A stretch of 64,000 nt of DNA from Hyphomicrobiales bacterium (GTDB taxonomy: Bacteria > Pseudomonadota > Alphaproteobacteria > Rhizobiales > Rhizobiaceae), in assembly GCA_900466575.1 (NCBI GenBank), contig UBMP01000011.1:186001-250000 (forward strand), given 5' to 3'. Position 1 is the stretch's first letter, and every line of letters begins with the position of its first letter. Below, piece after piece: positions 41,149 to 58,991 of this stretch. The notes below the pieces were generated by a model that saw only the letters and a list, made by a program, of their open reading frames with translations, searched no databases and had not been told where the DNA came from. A program made the translations under genes and the position numbers.

Positions 41149-41400
41149 ATGAAGGACAAGATCAGGGAACTTTTGGGCAAGCTCGGCGGCCTGCCTGTAG
41201 CGGTTGATACGCTGGCTGACGGCGCGGATCTCTACGCGGCCGGTCTTTCTTCCTTTGCGTCGGTGCAGCTGATGCTGGGCATCGAAGACGCATTCGATAT
41301 TGAATTTCCGGATCACCTGTTGAACCGCAAGTCGTTCGCCTCGATCGACGCGATTGCCGAAACCGTCTCCGCGATCGTCGAAGGCCGGGAGGCTGCGTGA
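41149..41400 (+). CDS. acyl-carrier-protein-like carrier protein
   Basis: The 83-residue protein has the four-helix carrier fold. The phosphopantetheine attachment site is S35 in YAAGLSSFASVQLM; the usual Asp-Ser-Leu is replaced by Ser-Ser-Phe, as in carriers that partner amino acid:[carrier protein] ligases. It is acidic later (IEDAFDIEFPD) like typical ACPs. AAGGAGAAGAAG precedes the ATG, and its TGA shares a base with the next ATG. It should be converted to holo form by a phosphopantetheinyl transferase elsewhere and loaded by the ligase two genes downstream. Confidence 0.9.
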   Translation: MKDKIRELLGKLGGLPVAVDTLADGADLYAAGLSSFASVQLMLGIEDAFDIEFPDHLLNRKSFASIDAIAETVSAIVEGREAA

Positions 41401-42581
41401 TGAACATGATGTCTGAAATTCGCGGCGCCGGGCTCGTCGAGCGCGCCCGCGAAGTCGCCGCCGTTGCCGCCAAACATGCCGATGCCGTCGACAAGGAAGG
41501 CCGCTTCCCGCACGAAGCCGTTGCCGCCATGAAGTCGGCGCGCCTGTTCGGCATCCAGGTTCCGATCCTGCTGGGGGGCGAAGGCGCCACCATTGCCGAG
41601 ATCGCGGAAGTCTGCTCGATCATCGCGCAGGAATGCGCCTCCTCGGCCATGATCTTCGCCATGCATCACATCAAGCTGTCGAGCTGCGTGTCGCACGGCA
41701 TGGGCGATGAATGGCATGAAGCTTTCATGCATCGCATCGTGCGCGAACAGTTGCTGCTCGGTTCGGCCACGACCGAAGCCGGCATCGGCGGCAACCTGCG
41801 CAATTCGATCTGCGCCATCGAGGTTGATGGCGACATCTGCCGCCTGACCAAGGAAGCGACCGTCATTTCCTATGGCAAGCAGGCCGACGCGATCCTCATC
41901 ACGTCCCGTTCGCACAAGGAAGCGGCCTCCACCGACCAGGTCATGACCGTGTTCCTGAAGGACCAGTACACGCTCGAACAGACCCATGTCTGGGATACGC
42001 TCGGCATGCGCGGCACCTGCTCGGATGGCTTCCTGTTCAAGGCGGAAGCGCCGGCGGTTCAAATCCTGCCGAAGCCGTTTGCGGAAATTGCTGCTGAGTC
42101 GATGCTGGCGACCTGCCACCTTCTGTGGTCGGCCACCTGGTATGGCATCGCGCTCAATGCCGTGACCCGCGCTCAGGCCTTCGTTCGTGCTGCTGCCCGC
42201 GCCAACCCGGGCACGACGCCTCCCGGCGCGCTGCGTCTGGCGGAAGCCACCGCCGAACTGCATCTGATCAAGTCCAACGTCATTGCCGGTATCGAGCGTT
42301 TCGAAGCCGCCAAGGAAGATCCGGCGCAGCTCTCCTCCATGGGCTTTGCGGTGGCGATGAACAACGTCAAGATCGCGACCTCGCAGATGATCCTCTCGGT
42401 CATCAACCAGGCGATGATCATCTGCGGCATTGCCGGCTACAAGAACGGCACGCCCTACAGCGTCGGCCGTCATCTGCGCGATGCGCATTCGGCCCAGCTG
42501 ATGATTTCCAACGAACGCATCCTGTCGAACACCGCGACGATGCTGACGGTCCACAAACTCGACACGAGCCTGATGGGATAA
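41400..42581 (+). CDS. acyl-CoA dehydrogenase-like flavoprotein of the carrier-protein operon
   Basis: The 393-residue protein has the acyl-CoA dehydrogenase fold: [20 protein letters not shown] at the front, [18 protein letters not shown] in the substrate/FAD region, then [16 protein letters not shown] and [14 protein letters not shown]. It lacks the usual QMHGG motif near the end (the region reads [21 protein letters not shown]), and no clear catalytic Glu is evident. Members beside carrier proteins often oxidise carrier-tethered amino acids, as prolyl-PCP dehydrogenases do. Here it may oxidise the aminoacyl group put on the carrier; that is inference. Translation is coupled to the carrier gene by TGATG overlap. 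Confidence 0.88.
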
Positions 42582-42585
42582 TGTG

Positions 42586-43494
42586 ATGGATATGCAAGTG
42601 ACTTTCCTCGACCGCCTGTTTGATAGCGGTCTTCTCATCGACACCGGCGTCGAAGGGCTCTATGCGCGCTCCGGCACGTTCGAAGATGTCATTACCGGTT
42701 TTGAGCGCCTGATCGACAAGTTCTCCGGCGAAACCGGTGCCGAAGTCATCCGCTTCCCCCCCGGCATGAACCGCAGCTATTTCGAAGGCTCGGGCTACAT
42801 GAAGAACTTCCCGCAGCTGGCGGGCACGGTTCACTGCTTCTGCGGCGACGATCTGGCGCATGCCGATCTGATCCAGTGCATGGCGGCAGGCGAAGACTGG
42901 ACCGGCGGCCAGAAGGCCTCCGACATCGTTCTGACGCCGGCGGCCTGCTATCCGCTCTATCCGATCGTCGCCAAGCGCGGCAATCTTCAAGCGGGCGGCG
43001 GTCTCTTCAACATCCAGTCCTACTGCTTCCGTCATGAGCCGTCGATGGACCCGGCCCGCATGCAGCTTTTCCGCATGCGCGAGTTCGTCCGCATGGGCAA
43101 GCCGGAAGACGTCATGGCCTTCCGCCAGGAATGGATGGAAAAGGGCAAGGAACTGATGGCGCAGGTGGCGCTGCCGGTCGATATCGACGTCGCCAACGAC
43201 CCCTTCTTCGGCCGCGCCGGCCGTCTGATGAAGAACAACCAGCGCGACCAGAACCTGAAGTTCGAACTGCTCATCCCGATCACCTCCGTCTCCAAGCCGA
43301 CGGCCTGCATGAGCTTCAACTACCATCAGGATCATTTCGGCAAGACCTGGGACCTGAAGACCGTCGACGGCGAAACCGCCCATACGGCCTGCGTCGGCTT
43401 CGGTCTGGAGCGCATTGCGCTCGCGCTCTTCCACCACCATGGGCTCGATCCCAAGCTGTGGCCTCAGCAGGTCCGCGACGCCCTCTTCGGGTGA
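42586..43494 (+). CDS. amino acid:[carrier protein] ligase (seryl-tRNA synthetase-like)
   Basis: The 302-residue protein is a class II aminoacyl-tRNA-synthetase core related to atypical seryl-tRNA synthetase, with no N-terminal tRNA-binding arm. Motif 2 lies around [22 protein letters not shown] and motif 3 is [12 protein letters not shown]. Candidate zinc ligands in the amino acid pocket are C121 ([10 protein letters not shown]), E151 (RHEPS) and C269 (HTACVGFG), the same pattern as in characterised Bradyrhizobium and Agrobacterium ligases. These activate a small amino acid (glycine or alanine) with ATP and transfer it to the phosphopantetheine of a carrier protein. The carrier gene is two genes upstream. 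The amino acid used here is not known. Confidence 0.9.
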
Positions 43495-43498
43495 TCCG

Positions 43499-44458
43499 AT
43501 GACGGGCATCCTGAACGTCACGCCCAACGGTTATCAGCCGCATGCGCTCCATTCCCCGGAGCGCATGTGGCCTGAAACCAATTGCTATACCGATCTTTGG
43601 ATCGAGCTTCTGGCAGCACAGGGGCTCGCGCCGCAATCCATTCTGGCCTTCACGCTGACCCAAGATTTCGAAGGCGACCAGATGACCTTTTTCAAGGTTC
43701 CGCTGGAAGACCTTGAAACGCTTTACGGAATTGTCGTCACCGAGCTTGCGATCTACGACAGGGTCGAGACGCATGTCGCCGAGCAGGCGGCGCGCGGGCG
43801 CATCTGCCTTGTCGAGATGGACTCATTCTACATGCCCGACACGCAGGGCGTTGCCTACAGACAAGAGCACGGCAAGACGACGGTTGCGATCAACCGGATG
43901 GATCTAGAGAACAAAGAGCTCGACTATTTCCACAATGCCGGCTTCTTCCATCTCTCTGGCGAGGATTTCGACGGGCTGTTCCAGATGAATGCGGCCGAAG
44001 GCGCGCTGCCCTTCCTGCCTTATACAGAATTCGTCAAGCTGCCGGATTTCTATCCGGAGGAGCGGGAATTGCGCGAGGAGGCGCTTTCGCTCGGCCAGTA
44101 TCACTACGATCGCCGGCCGGCCGAAAACCCGATAGCCGCCTTTTCCGCGATCTTCCCTGAGGCCGCCGCGAAAGTTGCCGAACGTCCCTTCGGCTTCTTC
44201 CACAAATATGCGTTCAATACGTTGCGGCAGGCGGGGGCCAATTTCGAACTCTGCGGCAGCTATTTCGAATGGCTGGGACCGGATTTCGCGGAGCCGGCTG
44301 CGCATGCGATGCGGATTTCGGAAGTGATGAAATCGGCGCAGTTCCAGCTGGCGCGGGCGGTGACGCGTAAGAAGTTCGAGCCGCTGGCAGGCGCGCTAGA
44401 GCCTGCGGCGGAAGCCTGGGAGAAGCTGATGGAGAGTGCGGGCAGGGCGCTGGGGTGA
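43499..44458 (+). CDS. DUF1839 family protein
   Basis: The 319-residue protein begins GYQPHALHSPERMWPETNCYTDLWIELL, a segment typical of DUF1839. It continues with DFEGDQMTFFKVPLEDLETLYG and CLVEMDSFYMPDT, then GYRQEHGKTTVAIN-like sequence (YRQEHGKTTVAIN). DUF1839 genes are found beside amino acid:[carrier protein] ligase genes. The function is unknown; YxxE and DxFYMPDT-type conserved polar residues suggest an enzyme, perhaps the one accepting the aminoacyl group from the carrier (inference). It starts 4 bp after the ligase stop and ends the tight four-gene block before a repeat island. Confidence 0.88.
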   Translation: MTGILNVTPNGYQPHALHSPERMWPETNCYTDLWIELLAAQGLAPQSILAFTLTQDFEGDQMTFFKVPLEDLETLYGIVVTELAIYDRVETHVAEQAARGRICLVEMDSFYMPDTQGVAYRQEHGKTTVAINRMDLENKELDYFHNAGFFHLSGEDFDGLFQMNAAEGALPFLPYTEFVKLPDFYPEERELREEALSLGQYHYDRRPAENPIAAFSAIFPEAAAKVAERPFGFFHKYAFNTLRQAGANFELCGSYFEWLGPDFAEPAAHAMRISEVMKSAQFQLARAVTRKKFEPLAGALEPAAEAWEKLMESAGRALG

Positions 44459-44470
44459 GGCGTCCTCCAA

Positions 44471-44641
44471 TCTCCCCCCCGTCGTGGGGGAGAAAGCAAA
44501 ATCACGGTCTTAGCTGAAAGCTAAGTCGTAGATTTTGCAAGAGAGGGGGCTTCTCCGCCGCTTACCCCCTCACCTGAAAAATCTAGCACTTAGCCTTCAG
44601 CTAAGATGCTGATTTTTCTTCCTCTCCCACAAGGGGAGAGG
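44471..44641. repeat. intergenic palindromic repeat island C (RIME-like)
   Basis: Two copies of the CTTAGCT/AGCTAAG hairpin lie at 44496-44538 (outer arms GCAAAATC and GATTTTGC) and 44576-44618 (GAAAAATC and GATTTTTC, inner arm slightly changed). The 21-bp CCTCTCCC...GGGAGAGG palindrome lies at 44621-44641, identical in sequence to the copy at 37742. A TCTCCCCC/GGGGGAGA palindrome opens the island near 44472-44493. It separates the carrier-protein block from the GH2-like gene, so transcription may be interrupted or processed here. Confidence 0.75.
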
Positions 44642-44666
44642 GGGAGCCAGTTGCGAAGAGAACGCC

Positions 44667-47099
44667 ATGACCGACTACGCCACCTCGTCCGCCCAGCCCA
44701 CAATCCGCCGTCTCGATGACGGCTGGGTGATGGAATTGACGCGGGCGGGCGCTTGCGCGAGCCCGGACGAAATCGTCGGGATCGAGGACTTCATCCCTGC
44801 CTTCGTGCCCGGCACGGTGGCGCAGGCGCTGGAGGCTGTTGGGCGGTTCGACCGGACCGATCCGATGCCGCTGGACGATCGCGACGCGTGGTATGTGCTG
44901 CGCCTGGACGAGGAGCCGGGCGATGCCATCTTACGCTTCGAGGGGCTCGCGACGGTGGCCGAGGTGTGGCTCAACGGCGACCGGATTCTTTCGAGTCAAA
45001 GCATGTACTTGAGCCACGACGTTACGGTTCACCTTCAGGGCGGTGACCGGCTGGCGATCTGCTTCAGGGCGCTAGGCCCGCTTCTCGGAAAGAAGGGGCC
45101 GCGGGCGCGCTGGCGACCGCAAATGATCACGCCGGCGGGTGTCAGGCTCTTTCGGACAACGACACTGGGGCGCATGCCGGGTTGGTGCCCGGAGGTTCAT
45201 GCCGTTGGGCCGTGGCGACCGGTTTCCTTGATCCGGCAGGTCAAGGACCAGCCGGGCGAGGCGCGGATTTCGGCGCGGCGTGATGCGCAGGGTTGCGGCC
45301 ATCTGGTTGTGCGGATCGACGACGCAGAGGGCGCGACAGTTTCCTGTGCCGGGGCCAGCGCCAAGGTCGTGGACGGTTCCGCGGTGCTGGTGTTGCCGGA
45401 TGTGGAGCCGTGGTGGCCGCGCACCCATGGCAAGCCGGTTCTGCACGATGTGTCGCTCGAATGGAACGGCGAGACCATCGCGCTTGGCCGGACCGGCTTC
45501 CGCCATATCGAGGTGGATCGCGATACGGACGGGCAGGGCTTCGGGCTGAAGATCAACGGCGTTCCGGTCTTCTGCCGGGGCGCGGTCTGGACGACGGCCG
45601 ATATCGTCAGCCTTCCGGGGGAACGCGAGGACTATCGCCCGTGGCTTGAAAAGGCGGCCGCCGCCAACATGAACATGATCCGCATCGGCGGGACCATGGC
45701 CTATGAGAGTGCAGAGTTCTTCAGGCTCTGCGACGAACTCGGCCTGATGGTCTGGCAGGAGCTGATGCTGGCCAATTTCGACTATCCCGCCAGCGATGCG
45801 GCCTGGCTTGCCGAGCTGAAACAGGAGGTCGTGCAATTGCTCGACCGCACGTCGGCCTCGCCGTCGCTCGCGGTTGTCTGCGGCGGCTCTGAAGTCTACC
45901 AGCAGGCGGCCATGCTCGGCTTGCCGGAAAGCGCCTACAAGTCGGATCTGACGGAAAGCATCCTGCCGGAACTCGTGCGTGCGCATCGGCCGGACTGCGT
46001 GTGGGTTTCTAATTCGCCCTCGGGCGGGGCGATGCCGTTTTCGCCCAATGCCGGCGTCACGCATTACTATGGCGTCGGGGCCTATATGCGGCCGCTGGAG
46101 GATGCCCGGCGTGCCAACGTGCGCTTTGCCGCCGAAAGCCTCGCCTTCGCGCATGTGCCGGAGCAGGCGACGCTCGACAAGCATCTGCCCGTCGCTGCCG
46201 TCCACGATCCGCGCTGGAAGGCGCGGGTGCCGCGCGACCGGGGTGCCTCCTGGGATTTCGAGGATGTGCGCGACTTCTATCTGAAGCTTCTCTACGAGGT
46301 CGAGCCCGAGCGGCTGCGGCGGGAAAATCCTGGCCTCTACCTCGATCTGTCGCGCGCCGTCACCGGCGAGGTGATCGAGGCCACGTTTGCCGAATGGCGG
46401 CGGGCGGGCTCGTCATGCCGGGGCGCTCTCACCTGGACGTTTCAGGACCTGCTGCCCGGTCCGGGTTGGGGGCTGGTCGATGCCACTGGCAAGCCCAAGC
46501 CGGTCTGGCATGCCGTCCGCCGCGCCTTCCGTCCCCTGCACGTCATGCTGACCGATGAGGGGACGAACGGGATCGATCTCCATGTCGTCAACGATCTGGG
46601 CGAAGGCCGGGATGTGACGGTCGAACTTGTCTGTTTGCGTGATGGCGCGGTGCCCGTCGTTTCGGGCCGGCGCGACCTGACGCTCGAACCGCACTCGGCT
46701 TCAAGTCTTGCCGCGACCGACCTCTTCGGCGCCTTCTTCGACACGGCTTACTCGTTTCGCTTTGGCCCGCCGTCTCACGATGTGACCGTGGCGCGGCTGA
46801 TTGACCGGGAGAGCGGCGAGGAGATCGCGAGCGCTTTCCATTTCCCGCTCGGCCGTCCGACGGCGCGGCACGATGTATCCTTCACGCTGGAACTTCTTGA
46901 GTCCGATCAGGGCTTTGCGCTCGACATCTCGACCGATCGTTTGGCCCAGAATGTACAGATCGACGCTCTCGGCTTCGAGGTCTCGGACAACTGGTTCCAT
47001 CTCGCGCCGGGCCGGCCACGCAGGATCCTTCTGACCGGCGCGGGAAAGCCTTCCGGCGAGGTTCGCCTTGCCGGCGGACGCAGTGTCTCAAGGTTCTGA
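44667..47099 (+). CDS. glycoside hydrolase family 2-like protein (beta-mannosidase type)
   Basis: The 810-residue protein has the beta-mannosidase-like architecture: a galactose-binding-like sandwich (EDFIPAFVPGTVAQALEA, VWLNGDRI), an immunoglobulin-like domain, a TIM barrel and C-terminal sandwich domains. No signal peptide is seen, so it is probably cytoplasmic. The acid/base candidate is E409 in CGGSEVYQQAA rather than the usual WCGNNE, and the nucleophile candidate is E490 in FAAESLAF. The altered motif suggests either a distinct subfamily or lost glycosidase activity. It opens a second block that continues with two radical SAM genes. Confidence 0.82.
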   Translation: MTDYATSSAQPTIRRLDDGWVMELTRAGACASPDEIVGIEDFIPAFVPGTVAQALEAVGRFDRTDPMPLDDRDAWYVLRLDEEPGDAILRFEGLATVAEVWLNGDRILSSQSMYLSHDVTVHLQGGDRLAICFRALGPLLGKKGPRARWRPQMITPAGVRLFRTTTLGRMPGWCPEVHAVGPWRPVSLIRQVKDQPGEARISARRDAQGCGHLVVRIDDAEGATVSCAGASAKVVDGSAVLVLPDVEPWWPRTHGKPVLHDVSLEWNGETIALGRTGFRHIEVDRDTDGQGFGLKINGVPVFCRGAVWTTADIVSLPGEREDYRPWLEKAAAANMNMIRIGGTMAYESAEFFRLCDELGLMVWQELMLANFDYPASDAAWLAELKQEVVQLLDRTSASPSLAVVCGGSEVYQQAAMLGLPESAYKSDLTESILPELVRAHRPDCVWVSNSPSGGAMPFSPNAGVTHYYGVGAYMRPLEDARRANVRFAAESLAFAHVPEQATLDKHLPVAAVHDPRWKARVPRDRGASWDFEDVRDFYLKLLYEVEPERLRRENPGLYLDLSRAVTGEVIEATFAEWRRAGSSCRGALTWTFQDLLPGPGWGLVDATGKPKPVWHAVRRAFRPLHVMLTDEGTNGIDLHVVNDLGEGRDVTVELVCLRDGAVPVVSGRRDLTLEPHSASSLAATDLFGAFFDTAYSFRFGPPSHDVTVARLIDRESGEEIASAFHFPLGRPTARHDVSFTLELLESDQGFALDISTDRLAQNVQIDALGFEVSDNWFHLAPGRPRRILLTGAGKPSGEVRLAGGRSVSRF

Positions 47100-47242
47100 G
47101 AGTTTGAATCCGTCCTGCAGGGCAAGCTGTTCATATGCCTGCAAAAACGGTCGTCCAGATCCTGATGGTGCCGGCGCAAGCTTTGGGCCAGCCTTTTCTG
47201 CAAAAGTGCTACAATGCACATATGCTGCAAAGGGCAGGGTTC

Positions 47243-48313
47243 ATGCGACTGGAAATCAAAGAGAAAATTCAACCGCGCATCGAATCGGCCCGGACGGTTC
47301 TGGGGGATGTGATCCCGCTGACAACGCCCTATGTGGTGTTCATTGACCCGTCGAGCGCCTGCAATTTCAAATGCACCTTCTGCCCGACGGGCGACCGCGA
47401 GCTGATCAAGTCGACCGGACGCTACCAGGGCAATCTGCATCTCGATCAGTACATGAAGGTGCTGTCCGATATCGGCGAGTTCGACAAGCGGCTCAAGGTT
47501 CTGCGGCTCTACAAGGATGGCGAGCCGCTCCTGAACCGCCATCTGCCGGATATGATCCGCATGGCGCGCGAGGCCGATGTGGCCGATGTTATCGACACGA
47601 CGACGAACGGCTATCTGCTCGGCGGCGAGATGGGCGAGACGCTGGTGAAGGCCGGGCTCAGCCGTATCAATATTTCCATTGATGGGCTGGATGAGGCGCA
47701 GTTCTGGAAGTTTACCAAGGCGAAGGTCGACTTCCCGAAATTCCTCGCCAACCTCAAGGATTTCTATTCCGTCTCCGGGGATTGCGAGGTCGTCATCAAG
47801 ACGACGAAGGAGATCATCGGCGAGGATCGCAAGGACGAGTTTCTCAACACGTTCGGCGATTATTGCGACCGTATCTTCGTTGAAAACACATCGCCCTGCT
47901 GGCCGGACTTCGATGTCGAAGAGCGCATGGGCATCACAATCGAGACCGGGCTTTACGGCAATGAAATTCTCGACGTGAAGACCTGCCCCTATCTCTTCTA
48001 TTCGATCTCGGTGAATTCCGATCTTTCTGTCAGTGCCTGTTTCGTCGACTGGTCTCGCGGCCTGAAGGTCGGCAGCCTCAAGGAGGCGAGCCTGAAGGAT
48101 ATCTGGCTTGGCGCGGAAATGCAGTCGCACCGGTTGGCCCATCTTCAGGGCAAGCGCGATGCGCATTCCATCTGCGGCAAGTGCAGCCAGATCACACATT
48201 GCAAGGCCGACAATATCGATGCGGATGCCGGCAAGCTGCTGGACCTTTACCGGCAGGTGCCGGAAGATCAACTGAGCGCGAAGGTGCTGAAGGCTTATGA
48301 ACGTGAACATTAA
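47243..48313 (+). CDS. radical SAM/SPASM-type protein (first of a tandem pair)
   Basis: The 356-residue protein binds the radical SAM 4Fe-4S cluster through C40, C44 and C47 (SACNFKCTFCPTGD). Further motifs are YKDGEPLLNRH, TTTNGYLL and ISIDGLDEAQ. The C-terminal part has CFVDW and ICGKCSQITHC, spaced cysteines suggesting a SPASM/twitch auxiliary cluster. It is homologous to the next gene, so the two arose by duplication. Such enzymes modify peptides or small molecules; the substrate is unknown. The start is uncertain among in-frame ATGs: 47243 or one seven codons earlier. Confidence 0.85.
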   Translation: MRLEIKEKIQPRIESARTVLGDVIPLTTPYVVFIDPSSACNFKCTFCPTGDRELIKSTGRYQGNLHLDQYMKVLSDIGEFDKRLKVLRLYKDGEPLLNRHLPDMIRMAREADVADVIDTTTNGYLLGGEMGETLVKAGLSRINISIDGLDEAQFWKFTKAKVDFPKFLANLKDFYSVSGDCEVVIKTTKEIIGEDRKDEFLNTFGDYCDRIFVENTSPCWPDFDVEERMGITIETGLYGNEILDVKTCPYLFYSISVNSDLSVSACFVDWSRGLKVGSLKEASLKDIWLGAEMQSHRLAHLQGKRDAHSICGKCSQITHCKADNIDADAGKLLDLYRQVPEDQLSAKVLKAYEREH

Positions 48314-49340
48314 GCCGCAGGCTCAAGCTGTCGAAAACGGCAATGTCTTCATGCTGCCGACGGCCTATGATCGGGCCGAACTGGTCGATCTCGTGCCGCT
48401 CGCTAATCCGATCTCCATGCAGGTCGATCCGGCGTCGCTGTGCAATTTCAAGTGCGCTTTCTGCCCGACCGGCGATCCGCGCCTGATCAAGCAGACGGGC
48501 CGCGGCCAGACCTTCATGAAGATGGAGCTCTACGAAAAGATCCTGGCCGAGATCGCTGCCTTCAAGACGCCGCTGAAGACGCTGAAGCTGTTCAAGGACG
48601 GCGAGCCGATGCTGCATCCGCAGTTCATCGAGATGGTGCGGATGGCCAAGGCGACCAAGAATGTCGCGCGCGTCGAGACGACCTCGAATGGCTCCAAGCT
48701 CTCGCCGGAGTTCAACGAGAAGCTGGTGGCCTCCGGCATCGATCGCGTCGTTCTGTCTATCGAGGGCGTGACGGACGAGAAATACCTGAGCTTTGCGCGG
48801 GTGCGCTTCGACTTTGCGAAGTTCGTCGAGACGGTGCGGCATCTCTATTCCATTCGCGGCAACATGAAGCTGCATGTGAAGACGGTGGCGCAGAACCTCG
48901 ACTATGCGAAGGGTGAGGACCGCATCTTCCTCGACACGTTCGGGCCGATCTCGGATGGCATCTATATCGAGAACACGGTGGCGAGCTGGCCGGATTTTGC
49001 CGTGGCCGATGCCGTGCCCGACGAGGTGGATGCCTATGGCCGCGAGACGGTGAAGAAGGATATCTGCCCCTACGTTCTTTATGCGCTCTCCATCAATGCC
49101 GATGGCGTCGTTAGCCCCTGCTGCGTCGACTGGAACCGCGAACTGGCGATCGGCTCCGTGGCCGAGCAGACGATCCTCGATATCTGGAACGGACCGAAGA
49201 TGGCAGCGCTCCGTCGTGCCCATATCGTGGATGGGCTGTCCTCCATTCCCTCCTGCGCCTCTTGCGGGCAGGTGCATGCCTGCACGCATGACAATGTCGA
49301 TCCGCGGCGCGAAGACCTGATCAAGCGGCTCGGGTTCTGA
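48297..49340 (+). CDS. radical SAM/SPASM-type protein (second of a tandem pair)
   Basis: The 347-residue paralogue of the preceding gene binds its radical SAM cluster with C49, C53 and C56 (SLCNFKCAFCPTGD). Conserved with its neighbour are DPRLIKQTGR versus DRELIKSTGR, FKDGEPMLH, and the late PCCVDWNRELAIGS with CASCGQVHAC, indicating an auxiliary cluster. The gene overlaps the first by 17 bp and has AAGG before its ATG. The two proteins may act as a heterodimer or in sequence on one substrate; both ideas are inference. It is followed by the FkbM gene with TGATG coupling. Confidence 0.87.
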   Translation: MNVNIKPQAQAVENGNVFMLPTAYDRAELVDLVPLANPISMQVDPASLCNFKCAFCPTGDPRLIKQTGRGQTFMKMELYEKILAEIAAFKTPLKTLKLFKDGEPMLHPQFIEMVRMAKATKNVARVETTSNGSKLSPEFNEKLVASGIDRVVLSIEGVTDEKYLSFARVRFDFAKFVETVRHLYSIRGNMKLHVKTVAQNLDYAKGEDRIFLDTFGPISDGIYIENTVASWPDFAVADAVPDEVDAYGRETVKKDICPYVLYALSINADGVVSPCCVDWNRELAIGSVAEQTILDIWNGPKMAALRRAHIVDGLSSIPSCASCGQVHACTHDNVDPRREDLIKRLGF

Positions 49341-50425
49341 TGGAACGAGAGGCAAGGATCAGGCGCATGCTGGCGGGCGGTCCGCTTGCGCTCGTCGGGG
49401 CAGGGCAGCTTGGGCGGATGGCGCTCGATATGTGGCCCGCGAATGCGCCGCGTCCTGCATTCTTTGTCGACAGCACGAAAGAAGGGACGTTCTGCGGTCT
49501 GCCGGTCCATCGGCTGGGGAGCGACCTGCCTGCGGGCGTCACCTATCTGATCAGCGCCTTCAAGATGCCGGCCGAGACGGCGAAGGCGATCTTCCGTCAG
49601 CTCGGGCAGGACGAACTGCTTACGGTCTATGATTATTTTGAGGAGAAAACGCCGCTTGAATTTTCCAATGGTTGGCGGGATCTCAGTGAAGCGCCCGGCC
49701 GAGAGACCCGGATTGCCGCCGCGCGCGGAGCGTATGTCGATGAGACCTCGCGGTTGATCCATGATTGCGCCTGCGCATGGCGCTACGCGCGCGATCTTCG
49801 CGCCGATTACCCGGTGACGCCGGAAGAACGGAAATACGACCTGAGCGAATTCGGCCGCGGCGGTACGTGCTACGATCTGGTCATCGATGGCGGGGCCTAT
49901 GATCTCGGGACGCTTGCGATGCTCAAGGCGGGTGGCGTGACGTTCGACCGTGTTGTCGCGTTCGAAGCCGATCCGGCTCGCCATGCCGATTGCGTGGCGC
50001 GTGCGGCCGACATGCCAGATGTCACGGTTCGGCCGGAAGCGCTTACCGATTTCGATGGCGATGCGGAATTTCTGGCGACCGGACTTTTGTCGGCGCGGCT
50101 CGCCGCGCCGGGCCTTCATGGAGACGCGCGGAACCGGAAGGTCCCTGTCGCGCGGCTCGACTCGATCTTGGCAGATGTCATTCCAGATCAGCCGCGCGTG
50201 CTGCTCAAGCTGCATATCGAAGGTGCTGAACTGCCGGCGCTGAAGGGTGCGGTCAGGCTGCTGGCGGAAGCACGCGTCGATATTCTTCTCAATCTCTCAC
50301 ATGACGAAGCTTCGCTGCTCGACCTGCCGGTCTATCTGCAGAGCTTCGGCCGTTTCGATATCTTTCTCCGGTCCCATGCGCTTTACGGCGAGGGGCTGAC
50401 TTTGTTTGCACGATACAGGGATTAG
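49340..50425 (+). CDS. FkbM family methyltransferase
   Basis: The 361-residue protein has an N-terminal Rossmann-like region (LALVGAGQLGRMALDMWP) resembling a nucleotide-sugar or NAD-binding fold, then a C-terminal FkbM methyltransferase domain: DLVIDGGAYDLGTLAMLK as SAM motif I, VVAFEADPARHADCV as motif II, and LLKLHIEGAELPALKGA, the FkbM signature. FkbM enzymes O-methylate sugars or polyketide/peptide hydroxyls. Its start shares a base with the preceding radical SAM stop. Together with the CmcI-like gene behind it, it suggests methylation of a sugar or carrier-bound intermediate. Confidence 0.85.
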   Translation: MEREARIRRMLAGGPLALVGAGQLGRMALDMWPANAPRPAFFVDSTKEGTFCGLPVHRLGSDLPAGVTYLISAFKMPAETAKAIFRQLGQDELLTVYDYFEEKTPLEFSNGWRDLSEAPGRETRIAAARGAYVDETSRLIHDCACAWRYARDLRADYPVTPEERKYDLSEFGRGGTCYDLVIDGGAYDLGTLAMLKAGGVTFDRVVAFEADPARHADCVARAADMPDVTVRPEALTDFDGDAEFLATGLLSARLAAPGLHGDARNRKVPVARLDSILADVIPDQPRVLLKLHIEGAELPALKGAVRLLAEARVDILLNLSHDEASLLDLPVYLQSFGRFDIFLRSHALYGEGLTLFARYRD

Positions 50426-50429: not shown

Positions 50430-51191
50430 ATGCCCGATTTCTTCGAAAAGCGCGCTGCCATTGCCGAACGCAACTGGGCCGATGCCCCGCTGCGTCAGGC
50501 CGCCGCCGACTGGCAGGATGCCTCGCGCCGGCGCGATTACCAGTATGTTCTGGAATGGATGGGCCGGCCGATCATCCAGGATCCGCAGGATGTCTGCTAC
50601 ATACAGGAGATCATCTGGCGGACAAGACCCGATGTGATCGTAGAGACCGGCATTGCGCGCGGCGGTTCGCTGGTGCTGTCGGCGTCCATTCTGGCCGCCT
50701 TGTCACAGGGCGAGTGGCTGGAAACCGGCACGATGAAGGCCCGCAAGGTGATCGGCGTCGACATCGACATTCGCCCGCATAACCGCGCGGCGATCGAGGC
50801 GCATCCGCTGGCGAAGATGATCACGCTGGTCCAGGGCTCGTCGATCGATCAGGGCATCGTGGATCAGGTGAAGGCAGAGGTGGGCGCGGCCGAGCGCGTG
50901 CTTGTCTTCCTCGATTCCAATCACACGCGTGATCACGTCTTCGAGGAATTGAAGGCCTATGCGCCGCTGGTGACGCCGGGGTCCGCCATCTTCGTCATGG
51001 ATACTGGCATTGAATATGCCAAGGAAGACAGTTTCCAGACCTCGCGTCCCTGGGGGCCTGGCAATTCACCGCTGACGGCCGTCAACGATTTCCTCGCCCT
51101 TCCCGAGGGCAAGGATTTTGCCAAGGATCTGTCGATCGAGAAGCGTCTGTTGATTACCTGCGCGACCGAGGGGCTTCTGGTGCGGCGCTGA
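50430..51191 (+). CDS. CmcI family cephalosporin hydroxylase/methyltransferase-like protein
   Basis: The 253-residue protein matches the CmcI/rhamnosyl O-methyltransferase family (PF04989): YQYVLEWMGRPIIQDPQDV, then DVIVETGIARGGSLVLSASILAAL with the SAM-binding glycine loop, GVDIDIRPHNR, and LVFLDSNHTRDHVFEELKAYAPLV. Despite the name, family members are largely SAM-dependent O-methyltransferases of sugars or antibiotics. It starts 4 bp past the FkbM stop; a TTG eight codons earlier is a less likely start. It overlaps the convergent hydrolase gene by 38 bp at its 3' end. Confidence 0.87.
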   Translation: MPDFFEKRAAIAERNWADAPLRQAAADWQDASRRRDYQYVLEWMGRPIIQDPQDVCYIQEIIWRTRPDVIVETGIARGGSLVLSASILAALSQGEWLETGTMKARKVIGVDIDIRPHNRAAIEAHPLAKMITLVQGSSIDQGIVDQVKAEVGAAERVLVFLDSNHTRDHVFEELKAYAPLVTPGSAIFVMDTGIEYAKEDSFQTSRPWGPGNSPLTAVNDFLALPEGKDFAKDLSIEKRLLITCATEGLLVRR

Positions 51192-52944
51192 GCGCCACCC
51201 GCGCGATCTCGTCGATGACGATCTTCTGAGCGTCCGGGACCGTCACATTGTGATCGCTTTCGCCCAGCGAAACGAATCGGGTGTTCGCGTAACGCTTCAG
51301 TCCTGCGAAATCGCTGCCGAAGACCATCCGGGCCTGTTCGATGCCCGGATCATGTTTCCCATAGGCCAGCACGACCGGCGCGCCGCGATCGGCCAGCGCC
51401 TTGAAGTCAGCGTGAATCTGCGCCTTCAGCCGGTTGCCGGCGGAGAGATTGCCGAGGGCGGGTTCGATCCTGTTGTAGATCTTGGCGACAATGACACGGA
51501 GGATCGCTCGGCCTGCTGCATTGAGGTCGACTTCGCTGCGCATCAGGCGGCGGAAGGTTTCCGGGTTCATGGCGCGCTTGGAATAATCGCCGAGCGGGCG
51601 AGAGACTTTCTTCAGTGCCTCCTCCACGCTCTGGCTGCCATCCCAGACAAAGGCGTAGGAGTTGACGACAACCACGCCGGCGGCGTTGGGATTGTCAATG
51701 CTCGCATGGAAGGCGTGGTAGCCGCCGCTGCAGCGTCCGGCGAGAATCGCGGCCCTGCCGGTCAGTGTCTTCAGGGTGGCGAGAGCGGCCTCGACATCCC
51801 GGTCGAGGCTTTTCGAATACAGCATCTGCGCCGGGTCATTGGGAGCCGAGGGGCTGTCGCCAATGCCGGCGGCGTCGAAGCGCAGGCTTGGAATGCCCCG
51901 CCGCGCCAGGTCACGCGCCATTGTCGCACCGGAATTGGCCCAGGCGGAGGCTCGATCGTAGCTGGTACTGACGAGAAGGACGGGTGCGCCGCGCGTCTCG
52001 CCCTCCGGCGCGCAGAACGTGCCGATGAGCCGGCCGCTCTCGCCAAAGGCAAGGCCTTTCTCGCTATATCCGTCTCCGACAAGGCTGGATTGCGGTATGG
52101 GTGCAGGCTGTCCGGCAGCGCTTTCGGCAGGCGCCACGCTGCGGACCCAACGGGTCAGTTCGGCCACGATCCGAGGCGGCGTCCTGGAAATGAGAGGGTT
52201 CACCACCAGTTGATCGAAACCGTCATAGGGAAGGCGGGTCACGGTCGCGCCTGCGCTCTGCAGGGCGTCGGCGAGCGCGCCGTCGCTCTCGCGCCCTTGC
52301 CGGCAGACTGCGAGGACAGGAAGCGCGCGGGATAGCTTCAGGTCCGCCTCGCGGATCTTGCGAAGGGTGGACGCAATCGTCTCCGGCATGGTCATGCCGG
52401 CAATGGTCAATGCACCGGTCTCGGTATAGTCCGGACCAAGGCCGAGGTCTGCCGCGATGATCTTCCACCAGAGCGCCGTTTCGCGCGCGTAGATGCGGCC
52501 GGAGGTGACCGGGGCCAGAAGGGCGATGCCCGAGAGGTTCGCGATGCGAGGCTCGGCGAGCATGGACAGCGTGGCACCCAGTCCGTGGCCGATGAGTACG
52601 ATCTTCGAGGCTCCGGAGAGGCGGCCGATTTCGCGGGCAGCCTGGGCGACAGACGTCAACCACGCGTCGAGTGTGATGTCATGATCCGCTTCTCTTGAGT
52701 CACCGGTCCCCGGGAGGTCGAAGCGCAGGTTTGATATCCCTTGGGCAGCCAGAGCCTCGGAAATTTCTCGATAGAACTTGCGCACCGACATGTCCTCGAA
52801 GCCCCATGGGCTGACGAGCAGAGCGGCCGTGTCTGACGGTGAAGCGTGCGGGAGAGCGGGCGTGAAGATGCCCGCCATTGCGTCGAAACGGAGGGGCTCG
52901 CCGGCGCGGGATGAAAATGTCTTCGGCATTGTATGTGCGTTCAT
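51154..52944 (-). CDS. tandem alpha/beta hydrolase with altered nucleophiles
   Basis: The 596-residue protein holds two alpha/beta-hydrolase domains in a row. In the first, the nucleophile elbow is GHGLG at 119-123, with Gly (G121) where Ser should be, so this half is probably inactive. In the second it is GRCSG at 403-407, with Cys405 as candidate nucleophile, D532 in AYGKHDPG and H565 in GESDHN to complete a Cys-Asp-His triad. No signal peptide is seen. It is encoded with the flippase gene (4-bp overlap) in the polysaccharide locus, so it may be an acylase, deacylase or acyltransferase for the glycan; that is inference. Confidence 0.82.
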   Translation of the reverse strand: MNAHTMPKTFSSRAGEPLRFDAMAGIFTPALPHASPSDTAALLVSPWGFEDMSVRKFYREISEALAAQGISNLRFDLPGTGDSREADHDITLDAWLTSVAQAAREIGRLSGASKIVLIGHGLGATLSMLAEPRIANLSGIALLAPVTSGRIYARETALWWKIIAADLGLGPDYTETGALTIAGMTMPETIASTLRKIREADLKLSRALPVLAVCRQGRESDGALADALQSAGATVTRLPYDGFDQLVVNPLISRTPPRIVAELTRWVRSVAPAESAAGQPAPIPQSSLVGDGYSEKGLAFGESGRLIGTFCAPEGETRGAPVLLVSTSYDRASAWANSGATMARDLARRGIPSLRFDAAGIGDSPSAPNDPAQMLYSKSLDRDVEAALATLKTLTGRAAILAGRCSGGYHAFHASIDNPNAAGVVVVNSYAFVWDGSQSVEEALKKVSRPLGDYSKRAMNPETFRRLMRSEVDLNAAGRAILRVIVAKIYNRIEPALGNLSAGNRLKAQIHADFKALADRGAPVVLAYGKHDPGIEQARMVFGSDFAGLKRYANTRFVSLGESDHNVTVPDAQKIVIDEIARVALSAAPEAPRSRR

Positions 52945-54473
52945 GGCAATCCGACCTCGCCCGCAGGGGGCGCTGCAATATTGATGAGACGAATATAAAG
53001 GGGACGCAGGCGATGCGGGACCCGTGCGGCAAGCCCGGCAAGCGTGCTCCGGTCGACCGGATCAATGGCCCGCATGATGCGAAGAGCGGGGACATAGCCC
53101 AGCGCGCCGGCGATGATGCCGACGACCACCCCGGCTATTCCGGGCAGCAGCCGCGTTGCGGCATAGGCCAGCGCCGCGGTGACCAGTGCTGCGGCAGCGA
53201 TGCGCAGAATGCGCAGCACGATGCCGCTGCTCTGTCCGGTTTTCGGGATGTAGCGCAAGATGAATGCGCCCATGGCGATAAGCGTCAGATTACGCATGAC
53301 CGCAGCGCCTTCGCCGCCCAGAAAGGGAACCGTGGCAAAAAGACCAATGGCCATGACAATCGCGCCGACGACGGTTGTCCGGAGCCGGATGTCCTGCCGG
53401 TCCATCGAGAAGACGTATTGTGTGCACAGTTGCAGGAAGACCGCTGCGGGAACCCCGGCGGCGAGGATGGTGACCATGATGCCGGCCTCGCGGTAGGCGG
53501 GCCCGTAGATGCTTGTGACAAGCGGCTCGGCGACGGCCGCGAGCCCGAAACCCATCGGCAGGGTCAGATAGGCAAAGTTGCGGATGACGGTCACGAGCAG
53601 GTCGGACGAGAGGCTGCCGTTCTTCTCGGAATGGGCGGCGTAGTAAGGGACAAGGCTACCCGTGAGCTGCATGGGGAGCTGCAGCGCGAGATTGGCAAGC
53701 GAGGTGGCAACGGCATAGTAGCCGACCGCTTCCGACGTCCGGAATTCCTGCAGGAAGACAATTTCGGGTCGTGTCAGAAAGACGGCTGCGACGATGAATT
53801 CGATGACGATCAGGAACGAGGTGCTCGCGATCTGTCTCGGCTGCATTCCGCAGCTATCGGGCCGGCTGCGCAGCACGTTCAGCGTGGTCAGGAAGAGCGG
53901 TATCTGCCCGAGTGCATAACCAGCCAGTGCGCCCTCGACGCCCCAGTACCATGCGCCGATGCCAACACCGGCAACCTGCAGGATGGCGCTGACGGCCGAG
54001 ACGCGAAAGAAGAAGCCGAGCTGCTGCTCGCCGATGAGGTAGTTCTTGGCGAACGAGCCGAGCGACTGGACGATGAAGAGCCCGCCGGTCAGCAGCGCAA
54101 TCAGAGGTGTGGAGGGGAGGCCGTGATCCGGTCCCTTGTAAAACAGCCAGACAGTGGCAGCCACGGCGAGCCAGAGCGTCGCGGCGGCAACAGGCCAGGC
54201 AAGGAAGGAGCTGAAACCGCGCCGTGCCTTGCCATCGTAGCCGCGCGCAGCCAACTGGGGCAGGATGCGGAGCATCGAAATGCCCGTCCCAAGCTCGGCG
54301 ATGAGCGAGCCCGTCACGACAACCCAGAGCGAAAAGGCGATCATGCCATTTGCTTCCGGACCAAGGAGGCGCGCGACAACCACCGAGGAGACGAATCCGG
54401 TCAGCAGCAGCGCCAGGCCGGCGGCTGCGTTGAGGACCGAATTCTTTACGATGCCGCTGTTTGCAGGTTTCAT
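52941..54473 (-). CDS. polysaccharide flippase, Wzx/MATE-like
   Basis: The 510-residue protein has about 12-14 hydrophobic helices and the polysaccharide-export flippase pattern: VLNAAAGLALLLTGFVSSVVVARLLGPEANG near the N-terminus, later EAVGYYAVATSLANLALQLPMQL and GFGLAAVAEPLVTSIYGPAY. Such proteins flip lipid-linked sugar repeat units across the inner membrane for polymerisation by a Wzy-type enzyme. Here that fits the Wzy-like and GumC-like genes nearby. I use the ATG at 54473, 11 codons inside the longest open frame. It overlaps the tandem hydrolase start by four bases. Confidence 0.9.
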   Translation of the reverse strand: MKPANSGIVKNSVLNAAAGLALLLTGFVSSVVVARLLGPEANGMIAFSLWVVVTGSLIAELGTGISMLRILPQLAARGYDGKARRGFSSFLAWPVAAATLWLAVAATVWLFYKGPDHGLPSTPLIALLTGGLFIVQSLGSFAKNYLIGEQQLGFFFRVSAVSAILQVAGVGIGAWYWGVEGALAGYALGQIPLFLTTLNVLRSRPDSCGMQPRQIASTSFLIVIEFIVAAVFLTRPEIVFLQEFRTSEAVGYYAVATSLANLALQLPMQLTGSLVPYYAAHSEKNGSLSSDLLVTVIRNFAYLTLPMGFGLAAVAEPLVTSIYGPAYREAGIMVTILAAGVPAAVFLQLCTQYVFSMDRQDIRLRTTVVGAIVMAIGLFATVPFLGGEGAAVMRNLTLIAMGAFILRYIPKTGQSSGIVLRILRIAAAALVTAALAYAATRLLPGIAGVVVGIIAGALGYVPALRIMRAIDPVDRSTLAGLAARVPHRLRPLYIRLINIAAPPAGEVGLP

Positions 54474-54586
54474 CTCATGTCCATGGGCGACACGGAACCG
54501 TGCCATATCGGGATCGGAGCCTAGCCGTGAAAGTTTAAGACAAACGAACAGGCGTCTGCACGGAGTCCGCGACTTCGGGCCATGGT

Positions 54587-55471
54587 TTATCGCGCCTTAA
54601 AATTGCGCCAGCCATAGAGGCGGCCGCGCAACATGGCGAGCGAGCGGCGTGCAAGCGTCGGCTTGCGGGTGATGGTGTAGACGACGAAACCGGCCGCGGG
54701 CCTGAGCAGTTCGGGCAGGAACTCCAGGAACGAATAGCGATGGCGGCGCATCACAAAGCCCTTGCCACGGCTATAGCCGTACATCTTGGCGATATGGGCA
54801 TCGGGATTGGCATTCGGTTGTTCTTCAGGATGGTAGCCGTAGAGGGCGCGGCGGAACAAACCCTTCGCACCCTGTGAAAGGCAGCGCAGAACAAGATCCT
54901 GTCCCTCTCCGGAGTTCCAGGGCGTACCGGAGCCCGCACCCAGTTCGTCGTCGAAGCCTCCTGCCTTGCGATAGGTCTCGGCACGAAAGACGATCACCCA
55001 CTCGATGAGCACGTGCCAGATGTTCTGCCGAGAGATGTCCGTATCCTGAGGTACAAAGGAGACCATGATCTCCTTGCCGTCCTTGTTGAGCGACCTGCCG
55101 GAATAGATGTCTGCAGGTTCCGTTGCGATGAGATGGCGCAGTGTCTTGAGAAATTCCGGCGGATACCAGCTGTCGTCATCGGGAAAGAGGAGCCATTCGC
55201 CCGCTGCGTGGCGCGCGCCGAGATTGCGGCCGCGATCGAGGCCTTTCTCGGCCGACTTGATGTGCCGGATCGGGAAGCGGCCTTCAAAATCCGCCAGGAT
55301 GGGCAGGAGCCGGTCGTCAGGGTTCTGGTCCACCACGATCAGTTCGAAACGATCGTCCTGCTGCTTGCAGAGGCTGTCGAGGAGCAGTCGCATTTCGACA
55401 TCACGCCCGAGCGTCGAGGCTATCATCGAGATGAGGGGAGGGGTTGTGTTCAAGGATGGTTCTTCCGGCAT
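54587..55471 (-). CDS. family 2 glycosyltransferase
   Basis: The 294-residue GT-A enzyme has the GT2 nucleotide-sugar fold: PPLISMIASTLGRDVEMRLLLDSL, FELIVVDQNPDD, GLDRGRNLGARHAAGEWLLFPDDD with the DDD (DxD) metal motif, then FDDELGAGSGTPWNSGEGQDLVLR carrying the acceptor-side Glu-Asp of the family. A C-terminal basic amphipathic end could attach it to the membrane. It adds a sugar to a lipid-linked repeat unit in the polysaccharide locus; specificity is unknown. It shares a ~190-bp divergent promoter with the GumC-like gene, where GATTA-T-TAATC at 55586-55596 is a small palindrome. Confidence 0.88.
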   Translation of the reverse strand: MPEEPSLNTTPPLISMIASTLGRDVEMRLLLDSLCKQQDDRFELIVVDQNPDDRLLPILADFEGRFPIRHIKSAEKGLDRGRNLGARHAAGEWLLFPDDDSWYPPEFLKTLRHLIATEPADIYSGRSLNKDGKEIMVSFVPQDTDISRQNIWHVLIEWVIVFRAETYRKAGGFDDELGAGSGTPWNSGEGQDLVLRCLSQGAKGLFRRALYGYHPEEQPNANPDAHIAKMYGYSRGKGFVMRRHRYSFLEFLPELLRPAAGFVVYTITRKPTLARRSLAMLRGRLYGWRNFKAR

Positions 55472-57683: not shown

Positions 57684-58991
57684 ATGGCGAGCCTGACGGG
57701 GACAGTTCCGCCTCTGCCGGTCGGCGGGCGTACGCCCGTCACGGCCGAAGATCGCGGGACAAACCTCGCCCGCTCCTTATACATGCTGGCGATCATCGCC
57801 GTCTTCGGCAGCCTGCTCAACAACACGTTCCTCTGCTTCGTGAACACGCGGATGTTTGCCGTGCGCGACAGCACCGTCATGCTGGGCGAACTGATCTGCA
57901 TCGCCTGCGCGCTGATCGTGGCGCTGGACCGCAAGGTCGGGCTCTACCTGAGCTTCGGTGTCTTTTTCGGCTACATGCTGATCCTGTTCGCATTCCGGCA
58001 GGTCTTCGACCCGAAGCCGGTGCGCGACATTCTCGTGCCGTTCGCCTTCTATTTTGCGGGGCTGCGCATCGCGAGCCCGCGTCTGGCCGACTTTCTCGTC
58101 GCCTCGTCGGCGATTTTCGTCGTTGCCTTCGGGCTGTTCGAGTATTTTGCGGTCGATACGTATCTCAACTATTTCAACGTGCTCGGTTACTATCTGGCGC
58201 GCGGCTCGTTGACGCTCACCGACACGTTTGGCCATACGAAGGGGCTCTTCATCAGCGGTGTTCGCGCCGAGCCACGAACGATCTTTCCGTTCCTTGGTTT
58301 GCATCGCGTGTCGTCGATCTTCCTGGAGCCGGTCTCCACCGGCAACTTCGGGGTCATCGTCTATGCCTGGGCGCTGTTCCGGAAAGAGATGCGGCTTCGC
58401 TGGATCACCTTTGCCTGCGCGTTGACGATCATCTGTCTGGCGGATGCCCGTTTCGGGCTCTATTCCTGCATCGTCATGACGTTGCTCAGACCCTTCTTCC
58501 AGATCATCCCGCGAACCGTCTGGCTCGTCTTGCCATTCCTGTTTCTCGCTCTCCTGACCATCTACGGTCTCGTGAGCGGCACGCATGGCGGCCCGAACGA
58601 TATCAGCGGCCGCATGAACGTCACCGCGCATCTCATTACGCAGCTCGGGCTTCCCGTTGTGCTCGGCATTGAAATGACCGACAAGTTTACCGCCGATTCA
58701 GGGCTTGCCTACTCGTTGACGCAATTCGGAATCGTCGGCTTTGTCGGGCTGTGGGCGCTGTTTGTCTTTGCGCCGGGCAGGACGGCAAAGGCGTGGAATT
58801 TCCATTCCATGGCCATCATCTACTTCCTGCTGCTGATGCTCATCTCCAATTCCGGCTTTTCGCTGAAAACCGGGGGGCTCCTGTGGTTCATCTTCGGCGT
58901 CGCCAATGGCGTCAGGTCCTGGGATGAGGCCGGTCAGAAGCCGGCGCAGGACTTGTCGTCTAGCCCGGCGCCGAGAAGACTTGCCAGCTGA
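57684..58991 (+). CDS. Wzy-type polysaccharide polymerase
   Basis: The 435-residue protein has about 10-12 hydrophobic helices with a large periplasmic loop around residues 160-240 (GYYLARGSLTLTDTFGHTKG, FLGLHRVSSIFLEPVSTGN), typical of O-antigen/exopolysaccharide polymerases. It should join lipid-linked repeat units on the periplasmic side. Its gene starts one base after the GumC-like stop and overlaps the convergent GH5 gene by 58 bp at the end. Repeat structure and linkage are unknown. Confidence 0.8.
   Translation: MASLTGTVPPLPVGGRTPVTAEDRGTNLARSLYMLAIIAVFGSLLNNTFLCFVNTRMFAVRDSTVMLGELICIACALIVALDRKVGLYLSFGVFFGYMLILFAFRQVFDPKPVRDILVPFAFYFAGLRIASPRLADFLVASSAIFVVAFGLFEYFAVDTYLNYFNVLGYYLARGSLTLTDTFGHTKGLFISGVRAEPRTIFPFLGLHRVSSIFLEPVSTGNFGVIVYAWALFRKEMRLRWITFACALTIICLADARFGLYSCIVMTLLRPFFQIIPRTVWLVLPFLFLALLTIYGLVSGTHGGPNDISGRMNVTAHLITQLGLPVVLGIEMTDKFTADSGLAYSLTQFGIVGFVGLWALFVFAPGRTAKAWNFHSMAIIYFLLLMLISNSGFSLKTGGLLWFIFGVANGVRSWDEAGQKPAQDLSSSPAPRRLAS

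Follow-up and report, generated by a model that had tools for sequence, protein, structure and literature searches.

Amino acid:[carrier protein] ligases related to seryl-tRNA synthetase (SerRS) load an amino acid onto a small carrier protein, and two of them, Bll0957 and Atu2573, were reportedly described by Mocibob in 2010 and 2013. We present here a copy of this family found in a 64,000-nucleotide stretch of DNA (the window, by which the whole stretch is meant) from a Hyphomicrobiales bacterium of the Rhizobiaceae (assembly GCA_900466575.1, contig UBMP01000011.1, positions 186,001 to 250,000 of the forward strand), where the ligase gene stands in one operon with genes for its carrier, a flavoprotein of acyl-CoA dehydrogenase fold and a DUF1839 protein. 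In a 2022 review (PMC9437257), a table gives Gly, Ala and Ser for these ligases, and their biological role is called unknown while their chemistry and structure are known; the Bll0957 and Atu2573 systems resemble ours in belonging to the same ligase family and in having a carrier and a flavoprotein beside the ligase.

The pathway idea itself is not new: Iyer and co-workers drew a nearly identical outline in 2010 (PMC2922099, note added in proof). There, gene neighbourhoods lead to the prediction that the tightly linked uncharacterised open reading frame Atu2574 forms an amide between an amino acid and the amine of a cell-surface sugar, with a redox enzyme modifying the aminoacyl group; a glycosidase is also mentioned. 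That source contains no fold evidence, survey numbers or clade split, all of which are added here, and the present case for the outline is independent and stronger. Agrobacterium loci in our own survey lead us to infer that Atu2574 is the DUF1839 protein. Another relevant precedent is Dlt D-alanylation, in which an activated amino acid is held on a small carrier and is bound for a surface polymer. Dlt differs in the fold of its ligase and in its MBOAT protein, which has no counterpart beside our operon (no MBOAT match among the 17 window proteins scanned with Pfam). For the transfer step, PMC12945683 describes CcbD and LmbD, which join a carrier-bound proline-type amino acid to the amino group of a thiooctose, as an amide, by a ping-pong mechanism with Cys-His-Glu residues, and which contact the carrier through arginines 312-324. 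PMC10318531 assigns DUF1839 itself a papain-like fold and a C(T/S)H triad and suggests a part in acyl-CoA-dependent glycan processing; our results agree with that paper on fold class and triad, but the acyl donor argued here is a carrier protein.

The reading we favour, at a little below an even chance, is a cytoplasmic carrier-based route by which an aminoacyl group is transferred, as an amide, to an amino sugar destined for surface polysaccharide. As far as our searches of the open-licence literature show, what is new is the predicted relationship between DUF1839 and a synthase that forms amides on amino sugars, the five-gene unit and its counts, its spread beyond the class and the split of the ligases into two clades; the ligase family and its structures, the DUF1839 fold class and the 2010 prediction are already known. 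The same literature yielded no experiment on the pathway, on Atu2571-Atu2579 or on the role of these ligases. Linking a ligase clade to a gene unit and to polysaccharide makes the role of the ligase directly testable (which amino acid, which sugar, which oxidation). Surface polysaccharides of rhizobia matter for plant contact, and DUF1839 is the mark of the unit.

A five-gene unit marked by DUF1839

The initial annotation, made from the sequence of the window alone, described four genes head to tail with gaps of 0-4 bp. The order is right; the gaps are -1, +4 and +4 bp, the first pair overlapping by one base. All four genes are real members of the unit, but the gene for a GH2 beta-mannosidase-like protein just downstream (Table 1) had been overlooked, and it is the fifth member.

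Genome surveys provide the evidence. An even draw of 297 genomes from the order, among them that of the window, contains DUF1839 in 49 and a ligase scoring over the model cut-off in 64. In a co-occurrence check that had been announced as a refutation test, the ligase gene lies directly upstream of DUF1839 in each of the 49 genomes that carry the latter, sharing contig and strand, with 30-454 bp between the profile matches, and the grouping is not refuted. A Fisher test for this co-occurrence (p about 4e-43) counts related genomes as independent and is set aside as evidence. Forty DUF1839 loci (39 from the 48 genomes of the order sample that carry DUF1839 besides the window's, plus genome G186 from the class sample) were read over 20 kb each. 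Carrier protein, flavoprotein, ligase and DUF1839 are present in 40 of 40, and the full five genes in 39. In those 39, GH2 always lies downstream of DUF1839 and on its strand, at a distance of 50 bp or less in 29.

The unit is sparsely but widely distributed. DUF1839 was found in two of the 190 genomes of the class sample (the window's own and G186, with a ligase over the cut-off in five) and in 15 of the 349 genomes of the phylum sample. Four DUF1839 genomes lie outside the class, in one family (f234), and all four have the five-gene unit in the same order. Within the window's own family, 25 of 121 sampled genomes carry DUF1839, rhizobia among them; the source genome (5.14 Mb in 44 contigs) has one match to DUF1839 and one to the ligase model. 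A further 80 named loci, being the best 80 of 580 matches and close relatives, come from Rhizobium, Agrobacterium, Neorhizobium, Shinella and their kin, with one Brucella pseudintermedia record. These contain the ligase in 80 cases, the flavoprotein in 79 and the carrier and GH2 in 78 each, the gaps falling in short or cut contigs (L134, L185, L187). Since this set overlaps the order sample (at least L205 and L146 resemble contigs of G212 and G482 in length), the two sets of counts do not add as independent cases.

S35, named beforehand as the attachment site of the carrier, is a serine in all 135 loci with a carrier match, and a holo-carrier is to be expected because the source genome has two matches to a phosphopantetheinyl transferase domain. 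The window ligase is collinear with the solved amino acid:[carrier protein] ligases PDB 4h2w and 3mey over residues 8-300 of 302 (E about 1e-93), which leaves no room for a tRNA-binding domain, as had been claimed. Candidate zinc ligands C121, E151 and C269 had also been proposed. All three are conserved across loci, as is E166. The residues of Bll0957 that we take to be its zinc ligands (C131, E176 and C279) align with C121, E166 and C269, which from this alignment are the likely ligands in the window ligase. The two cysteines of the proposal therefore stand, while E151, which sits in an FRHE motif, is probably not a ligand because the ligand glutamate of Bll0957 falls on E166; E151 is probably the motif-2 glutamate. 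Loading of an amino acid on the carrier, known for the family, should hold for the window copy as well. Atu2573, for one, is reported to load glycine.

E409 and E490 of the GH2 protein align with glutamates of solved beta-mannosidases that we take to be catalytic, and of 123 loci, all 121 that include both positions retain them. The WDWG mannosidase signature is absent from the protein, whose residues opposite the WDWG of 5n6u are PGWC, and no signal peptide was seen by eye at its N-terminus. In the window, DUF1839 and GH2 are separated by 208 bp filled by a palindromic repeat, which folds far better than its shuffles (z-score -8.5). The repeat has 78 matching pieces in the source genome, a figure higher than the true copy number because the repeat itself and both strands are counted. 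The wide gap looks like a late insertion.

Two ligase clades with unlike neighbours

In a maximum-likelihood tree built from 61 ligases, one clade (support 96/92) holds 41 DUF1839-linked rows and L126, and another (95/92) holds the 16 rows that lack DUF1839; three distant rows fall outside both clades on very long branches, with a program warning. The presence of DUF1839 needs two changes on this tree because L126, a long branch without DUF1839, falls inside the DUF1839-linked clade. L126 (genome G131) has the carrier and a ligase of that clade and lacks flavoprotein and DUF1839. An alpha/beta hydrolase and proteins without a Pfam match lie near it.

The window copy belongs to the DUF1839-linked clade. 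The Bll0957-type ligases belong to the other, which includes the ligase of L115, nearly identical to the Bll0957 chain, and whose members are 47-52% identical to the window ligase. Neither DUF1839 nor GH2 was found within the 20 kb read at the 16 loci of this second clade. The flavoprotein adjoins the ligase there too, in 16 of 16, and thus accompanies it with or without DUF1839. The carrier was found by tblastn in 13 of the 16 and lies on the strand opposite to the flavoprotein in all 13, versus the same strand in 40 of 40 DUF1839 loci. A general carrier-ligase system with a single fate was considered and rejected, as the tree splits into two clades with unlike neighbours.

The surroundings of the two clades differ in genes for polysaccharide. 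A count confined to proteins related to those of the window (Wzx, Wzc, Wzy, GT2, GT4 or GH5) finds at least one within the 20 kb read at 23 of the 40 DUF1839 loci versus 3 of the 16 loci of the other clade; adding the alpha/beta hydrolase raises this to 28 of 40 versus 3 of 16. A broader Pfam census of 113 neighbour proteins from 11 DUF1839 loci yields the glycosyltransferase families PF13692 (GT1 type, 9) and PF00534 (8), then the GT2 family PF00535 (3) and the polysaccharide deacetylase family PF01522 (3). Within 6 kb of the named loci, an alpha/beta hydrolase of the window's kind occurs at 49 of 80 and a flippase at 22 of 80. The corresponding census for the DUF1839-less clade (126 proteins, nine loci) is led by AMP-binding (12), short-chain dehydrogenase (7), thiamine pyrophosphate (TPP) enzyme (5), Cys/Met pyridoxal phosphate (PLP) enzyme (5) and homoserine succinyltransferase (4) families; GINT1_N (two members) is the only family of glycosyltransferase kind among the 25 listed of 112, which go down to two members each, and rarer ones may occur. 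It would appear that this clade serves another, uncharacterised pathway. Taken together, the loci L111-L125 and L127 have AMP-binding, short-chain dehydrogenase, TPP, GNAT, homoserine succinyltransferase and Cys/Met PLP enzymes around the ligase, with a flavin reductase near it in L111. PMC10888616 gives a fold change of 3.0 for bll0957 and bll0958 of Bradyrhizobium in a phaR mutant at low oxygen, a hint on the regulation of this clade.

Three distant ligases (L128, L129 and L130, from G226, G444 and G467; 28-30% identity, frames of 403-405 aa) are preceded by an unknown protein and then an MBOAT-type protein; in L128 and L130 a small carrier comes next after the ligase. The MBOAT protein and carrier are Pfam-confirmed in L130, and other members of the group were assigned by sequence clustering. 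So assigned, the group would be like a dlt operon with a SerRS-like ligase in the place of DltA.

DUF1839 and the flavoprotein

A model of the DUF1839 protein built from 41 sequences (mean predicted local distance difference test score, pLDDT, 93.7; predicted template modelling score 0.91) was compared with the PDB by Foldseek. The 19 matches at E <=0.001 are chains of AziU2-U3 (3), CtaG (8) and CcbD (8), over 319-362 columns, with template modelling (TM) scores by query length of 0.51-0.60 and root-mean-square deviations of 5.7-7.7 A. The CcbD and CtaG chains score E 2.5e-7 to 8.4e-4; the next-ranked structure, a phytochelatin synthase, has E 0.027. On this model DUF1839 is probably a carrier-protein-dependent amide synthase that works like CcbD and CtaG. 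It is not filed in the CcbD, CtaG or BtrH families because sequence profiles find none of these structures. Only PF08893 matches the protein in Pfam at E up to 0.1, with no match to PF14399 (BtrH_N), which is missing from the source genome as well.

The likeness to CcbD and LmbD covers the predicted whole-length fold and the use of a carrier-bound amino acid, and the acceptor of CcbD is an amino sugar. These enzymes differ from DUF1839 in having Cys-His-Glu where DUF1839 probably has C-T-H, in being supplied by an A domain where a SerRS-like ligase stands here, in showing no sequence similarity that we could find, and in serving an antibiotic whereas DUF1839 sits in a polysaccharide context. 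CtaG, from closthioamide synthesis, shares the fold and a catalytic Cys near the N-terminus (PDB titles name variants C11A, H128A and D144N), but has the order C-H-D and another acceptor than the amino sugar proposed for DUF1839. According to the initial annotation, DUF1839 takes the product off the carrier. Removal of the acyl group is supported by the predicted CcbD-like fold, but transfer to an amine, likely of an amino sugar, fits better than release. By analogy with the acceptor of CcbD, and judging from the GH2 gene and the neighbourhood, that amine may belong to an amino sugar of a surface polysaccharide.

Counting the best-scoring copy per locus, C29 and T128 are each conserved in 124 of 125 loci and H145 in 125 of 125, which agrees with the C(T/S)H triad given in PMC10318531. 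R286, in a conserved basic helix at the C-terminus, is likewise present in 125 of 125. In two related genomes outside the class, G693 and G757, the DUF1839 copy in the operon has R or Q at position 29 and C at position 128 with H124 and H145 kept, and each genome has a second copy elsewhere with residues 29 and 128 intact (copies at L216 6949-7830 and 11762-12685, L217 8477-9373 and L218 112-1047). The G757 locus entered the residue counts by its second copy, so that two operon copies lack C29. This joint loss while both histidines are kept favours C29 and T128 as partners, as seen in these two related genomes only. At L087 (G397:C1:2515620-2516545), DUF1839 is split over two frames by a frameshift or a sequence error.

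The lack of the usual QMHGG motif in the flavoprotein was noted correctly from the start; the same place reads ICGIAGY. A fold search with its model (pLDDT 92.7) matches acyl-CoA dehydrogenases and flavin monooxygenases (TdsC, DszC, KijD3) about equally, both on top. Aligned with 8i4p, the protein has I369 opposite the catalytic glutamate of the YEGT motif and C239 opposite the alternative glutamate position; these are the two places of the catalytic glutamate in acyl-CoA dehydrogenases. Position 369 holds I in 138 of the 139 loci and V in the other; at position 239, 138 loci have C, S, A or T and one is not covered. The catalytic glutamate is thus absent from both known positions in the loci that cover them, with positions set on 8i4p among five profile alignments; 7p98, the chain that scores best, itself carries T in place of the YEGT glutamate. 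All loci that cover H240 and H89 (138 of 139) retain them. With both glutamates replaced, the protein was not taken for a standard acyl-CoA dehydrogenase. A glycyl group lacks a beta carbon, which closes alpha,beta-dehydrogenation to it; if glycine is loaded, a different reaction must take place. As to an oxygenase, the C-terminal domain is of dehydrogenase type (PF00441) in 40 of 49 flavoproteins, that of the window included, and of oxygenase type (PF08028, Acyl-CoA_dh_2, unmatched by the window flavoprotein) in nine. Together with the lack of a flavin reductase among the five unit genes, this leans against an oxygenase role; the Flavin_Reduct family accounts for 2 of the 126 neighbour proteins of the DUF1839-less clade. 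Oxidation of the carrier-bound amino acid by the flavoprotein is plausible, and that it comes before transfer is a guess from the constant company of the genes.

Proposed pathway and its alternatives

The route we favour would begin with the ligase adenylating a small amino acid, probably glycine, and loading it on the phosphopantetheine at S35 of the carrier, as is known for the family. In the weakest step, the flavoprotein would oxidise the tethered aminoacyl group at the nitrogen (N-oxygenation) or at the C-alpha/N bond, since the missing beta carbon of glycyl and the loss of both dehydrogenase glutamates speak against alpha,beta-dehydrogenation. DUF1839, to judge from its predicted fold and its conservation, would take the acyl group onto C29 and pass it to an amine by a CcbD-like ping-pong, most likely to that of an amino sugar bound to a nucleotide or a lipid. 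From the gene context, this sugar would enter a polysaccharide made by the neighbouring genes, and GH2, with catalytic glutamates kept and mannose signature lost, would act on the same glycan in the cytoplasm. We know of no described sugar substituent of the oxidised-aminoacyl kind. The full version of the product, an oxidised aminoacyl group (e.g. N-hydroxyglycyl or a C-alpha/N oxidation product) amide-linked to an amino sugar in the surface polysaccharide of a rhizobium, is doubtful; if true, polysaccharide assembly would be coupled to a ligase resembling tRNA synthetases, a redox enzyme and an amide synthase that resembles lincosamide synthetase but has its triad permuted.

A number of observations weigh against this route. 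The fold match of DUF1839 is loose, as its root-mean-square deviations show, and no chain of CcbD/CtaG type or of AziU2-U3 came up when a sequence profile was run on the PDB with E values as high as 10. HHalign of DUF1839 against BtrH_N (alignment from nine loci) gave a very weak result, probability 2.6% and E 0.017 for one pair. The probable C-T-H triad is permuted in order relative to the Cys-His-Asp/Glu of the CcbD/CtaG type, and H124, invariant too, is a rival catalytic histidine. AziU2-U3 as top match is no proof of amide synthesis. For the flavoprotein, sequence libraries lean towards dehydrogenases and against the N-oxygenase reading, so the N-oxygenation step carries little weight. Among the 40 DUF1839 loci, L089 is the only one without GH2 in the 20 kb read, 17 lack relatives of the window's Wzx, Wzc, Wzy, GT2, GT4 and GH5, and 12 lack even the alpha/beta hydrolase; within 6 kb of the 80 named loci, relatives of the window's GT4 and GT2 occur once each. 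The acceptor sugar need not be the same at all loci.

One alternative is that the same chemistry yields a diffusible small molecule, an amino-sugar conjugate or other amide as in lincosamides and closthioamide, with the polysaccharide genes as mere neighbours. Where the initial annotation spoke of a small-molecule or modification pathway, the neighbourhood narrows the choice towards polysaccharide-linked modification, yet the 12 loci bare of window-type polysaccharide genes and the variation of such genes from locus to locus suit a small molecule, as do the nearest solved folds, which come from small-molecule pathways. Set against this are the hydrolase and flippase near many named loci, the glycosyltransferase families around 11 DUF1839 loci, the GH2 gene within the unit, and the lack of an exporter or non-ribosomal peptide synthetase among the five conserved genes, and we consider a small molecule unlikely, if worth keeping in mind. 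An ester on a sugar hydroxyl in place of the amide (O-aminoacylation, as by Dlt on teichoic acids) would be in keeping with the dlt-like order of MBOAT protein, ligase and carrier around the distant ligases and with the ability of papain-like acyltransferases to use other nucleophiles. It is improbable given that CcbD, like CtaG, makes an amide and that 3 of the 113 neighbour proteins match polysaccharide deacetylase, a kind of enzyme that sets amines free.

That DUF1839 is a thioesterase-like hydrolase, freeing the oxidised amino acid from the carrier, seems more improbable still: the papain-like superfamily consists mainly of peptidases according to PMC10318531, but the whole-length fold match of DUF1839 includes synthases, and plain papain-like proteases rank behind them at E >0.02. 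A separate question, compatible with any of these explanations, is whether the flavoprotein has a different substrate within the locus or no catalytic activity at all. The loss of both dehydrogenase glutamate positions and the existence of L126, with carrier and ligase but no flavoprotein, would fit this, while the place of the flavoprotein next to the ligase in 40 of 40 DUF1839 loci and 16 of 16 loci of the other clade makes such a role rather unlikely.

The two radical SAM proteins downstream of GH2 (Table 1) recur in 2 of the 80 named loci and 0 of the 40 DUF1839 loci, and lie outside the conserved unit.

Table 1. Coordinates in the window of the five-gene unit and of the genes downstream of it
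Feature	Position	Strand	Basis
Carrier protein, 83 aa, phosphopantetheine site S35	41149-41400	+	PF00550, 29 bits; NF005480, 120.9 bits (cut-off 72)
Acyl-CoA-dehydrogenase-fold flavoprotein, 393 aa	41400-42581	+	PF02771 and PF00441 over cut-off; PF02770 below
SerRS-like amino acid:[carrier protein] ligase, 302 aa	42586-43494	+	NF005479, 500.7 bits (cut-off 357)
DUF1839 protein, 319 aa	43499-44458	+	PF08893, 416.8 bits (gathering cut-off 22.5)
Repeated intergenic palindrome between DUF1839 and GH2	44462-44660	+	Genome repeats and fold z-score
GH2 beta-mannosidase-like protein, 810 aa, fifth unit member	44667-47099	+	Pfam, alignments, survey
Radical SAM/SPASM pair, accessory	47135-48313, 48297-49340	+	PF04055, PF13186
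FkbM-type methyltransferase, accessory	49340-50425	+	PF05050
CmcI/rhamnosyl O-methyltransferase-type methyltransferase, accessory	50430-51191	+	PF04989
Alpha/beta hydrolase pair, surface-polysaccharide context	51154-52944	-	PF12697/PF12146
Wzx-type flippase	52941-54506	-	PF13440
GT2 glycosyltransferase	54587-55471	-	PF00535
Wzz/GumC-type chain-length protein	55664-57682	+	PF02706, PF13807
Putative polymerase, no Pfam match	57684-58991	+	Context
GH5	58934-59932	-	PF00150
GT4 glycosyltransferase	59945-61069	-	PF00534/PF13439

The two methyltransferases were found in none of the 40 DUF1839 loci. In L131 and L132 (Rhizobium sp. C1 and C4, with DUF1839 95-96% identical to that of the window), methyltransferases are present on the opposite strand and in another order.

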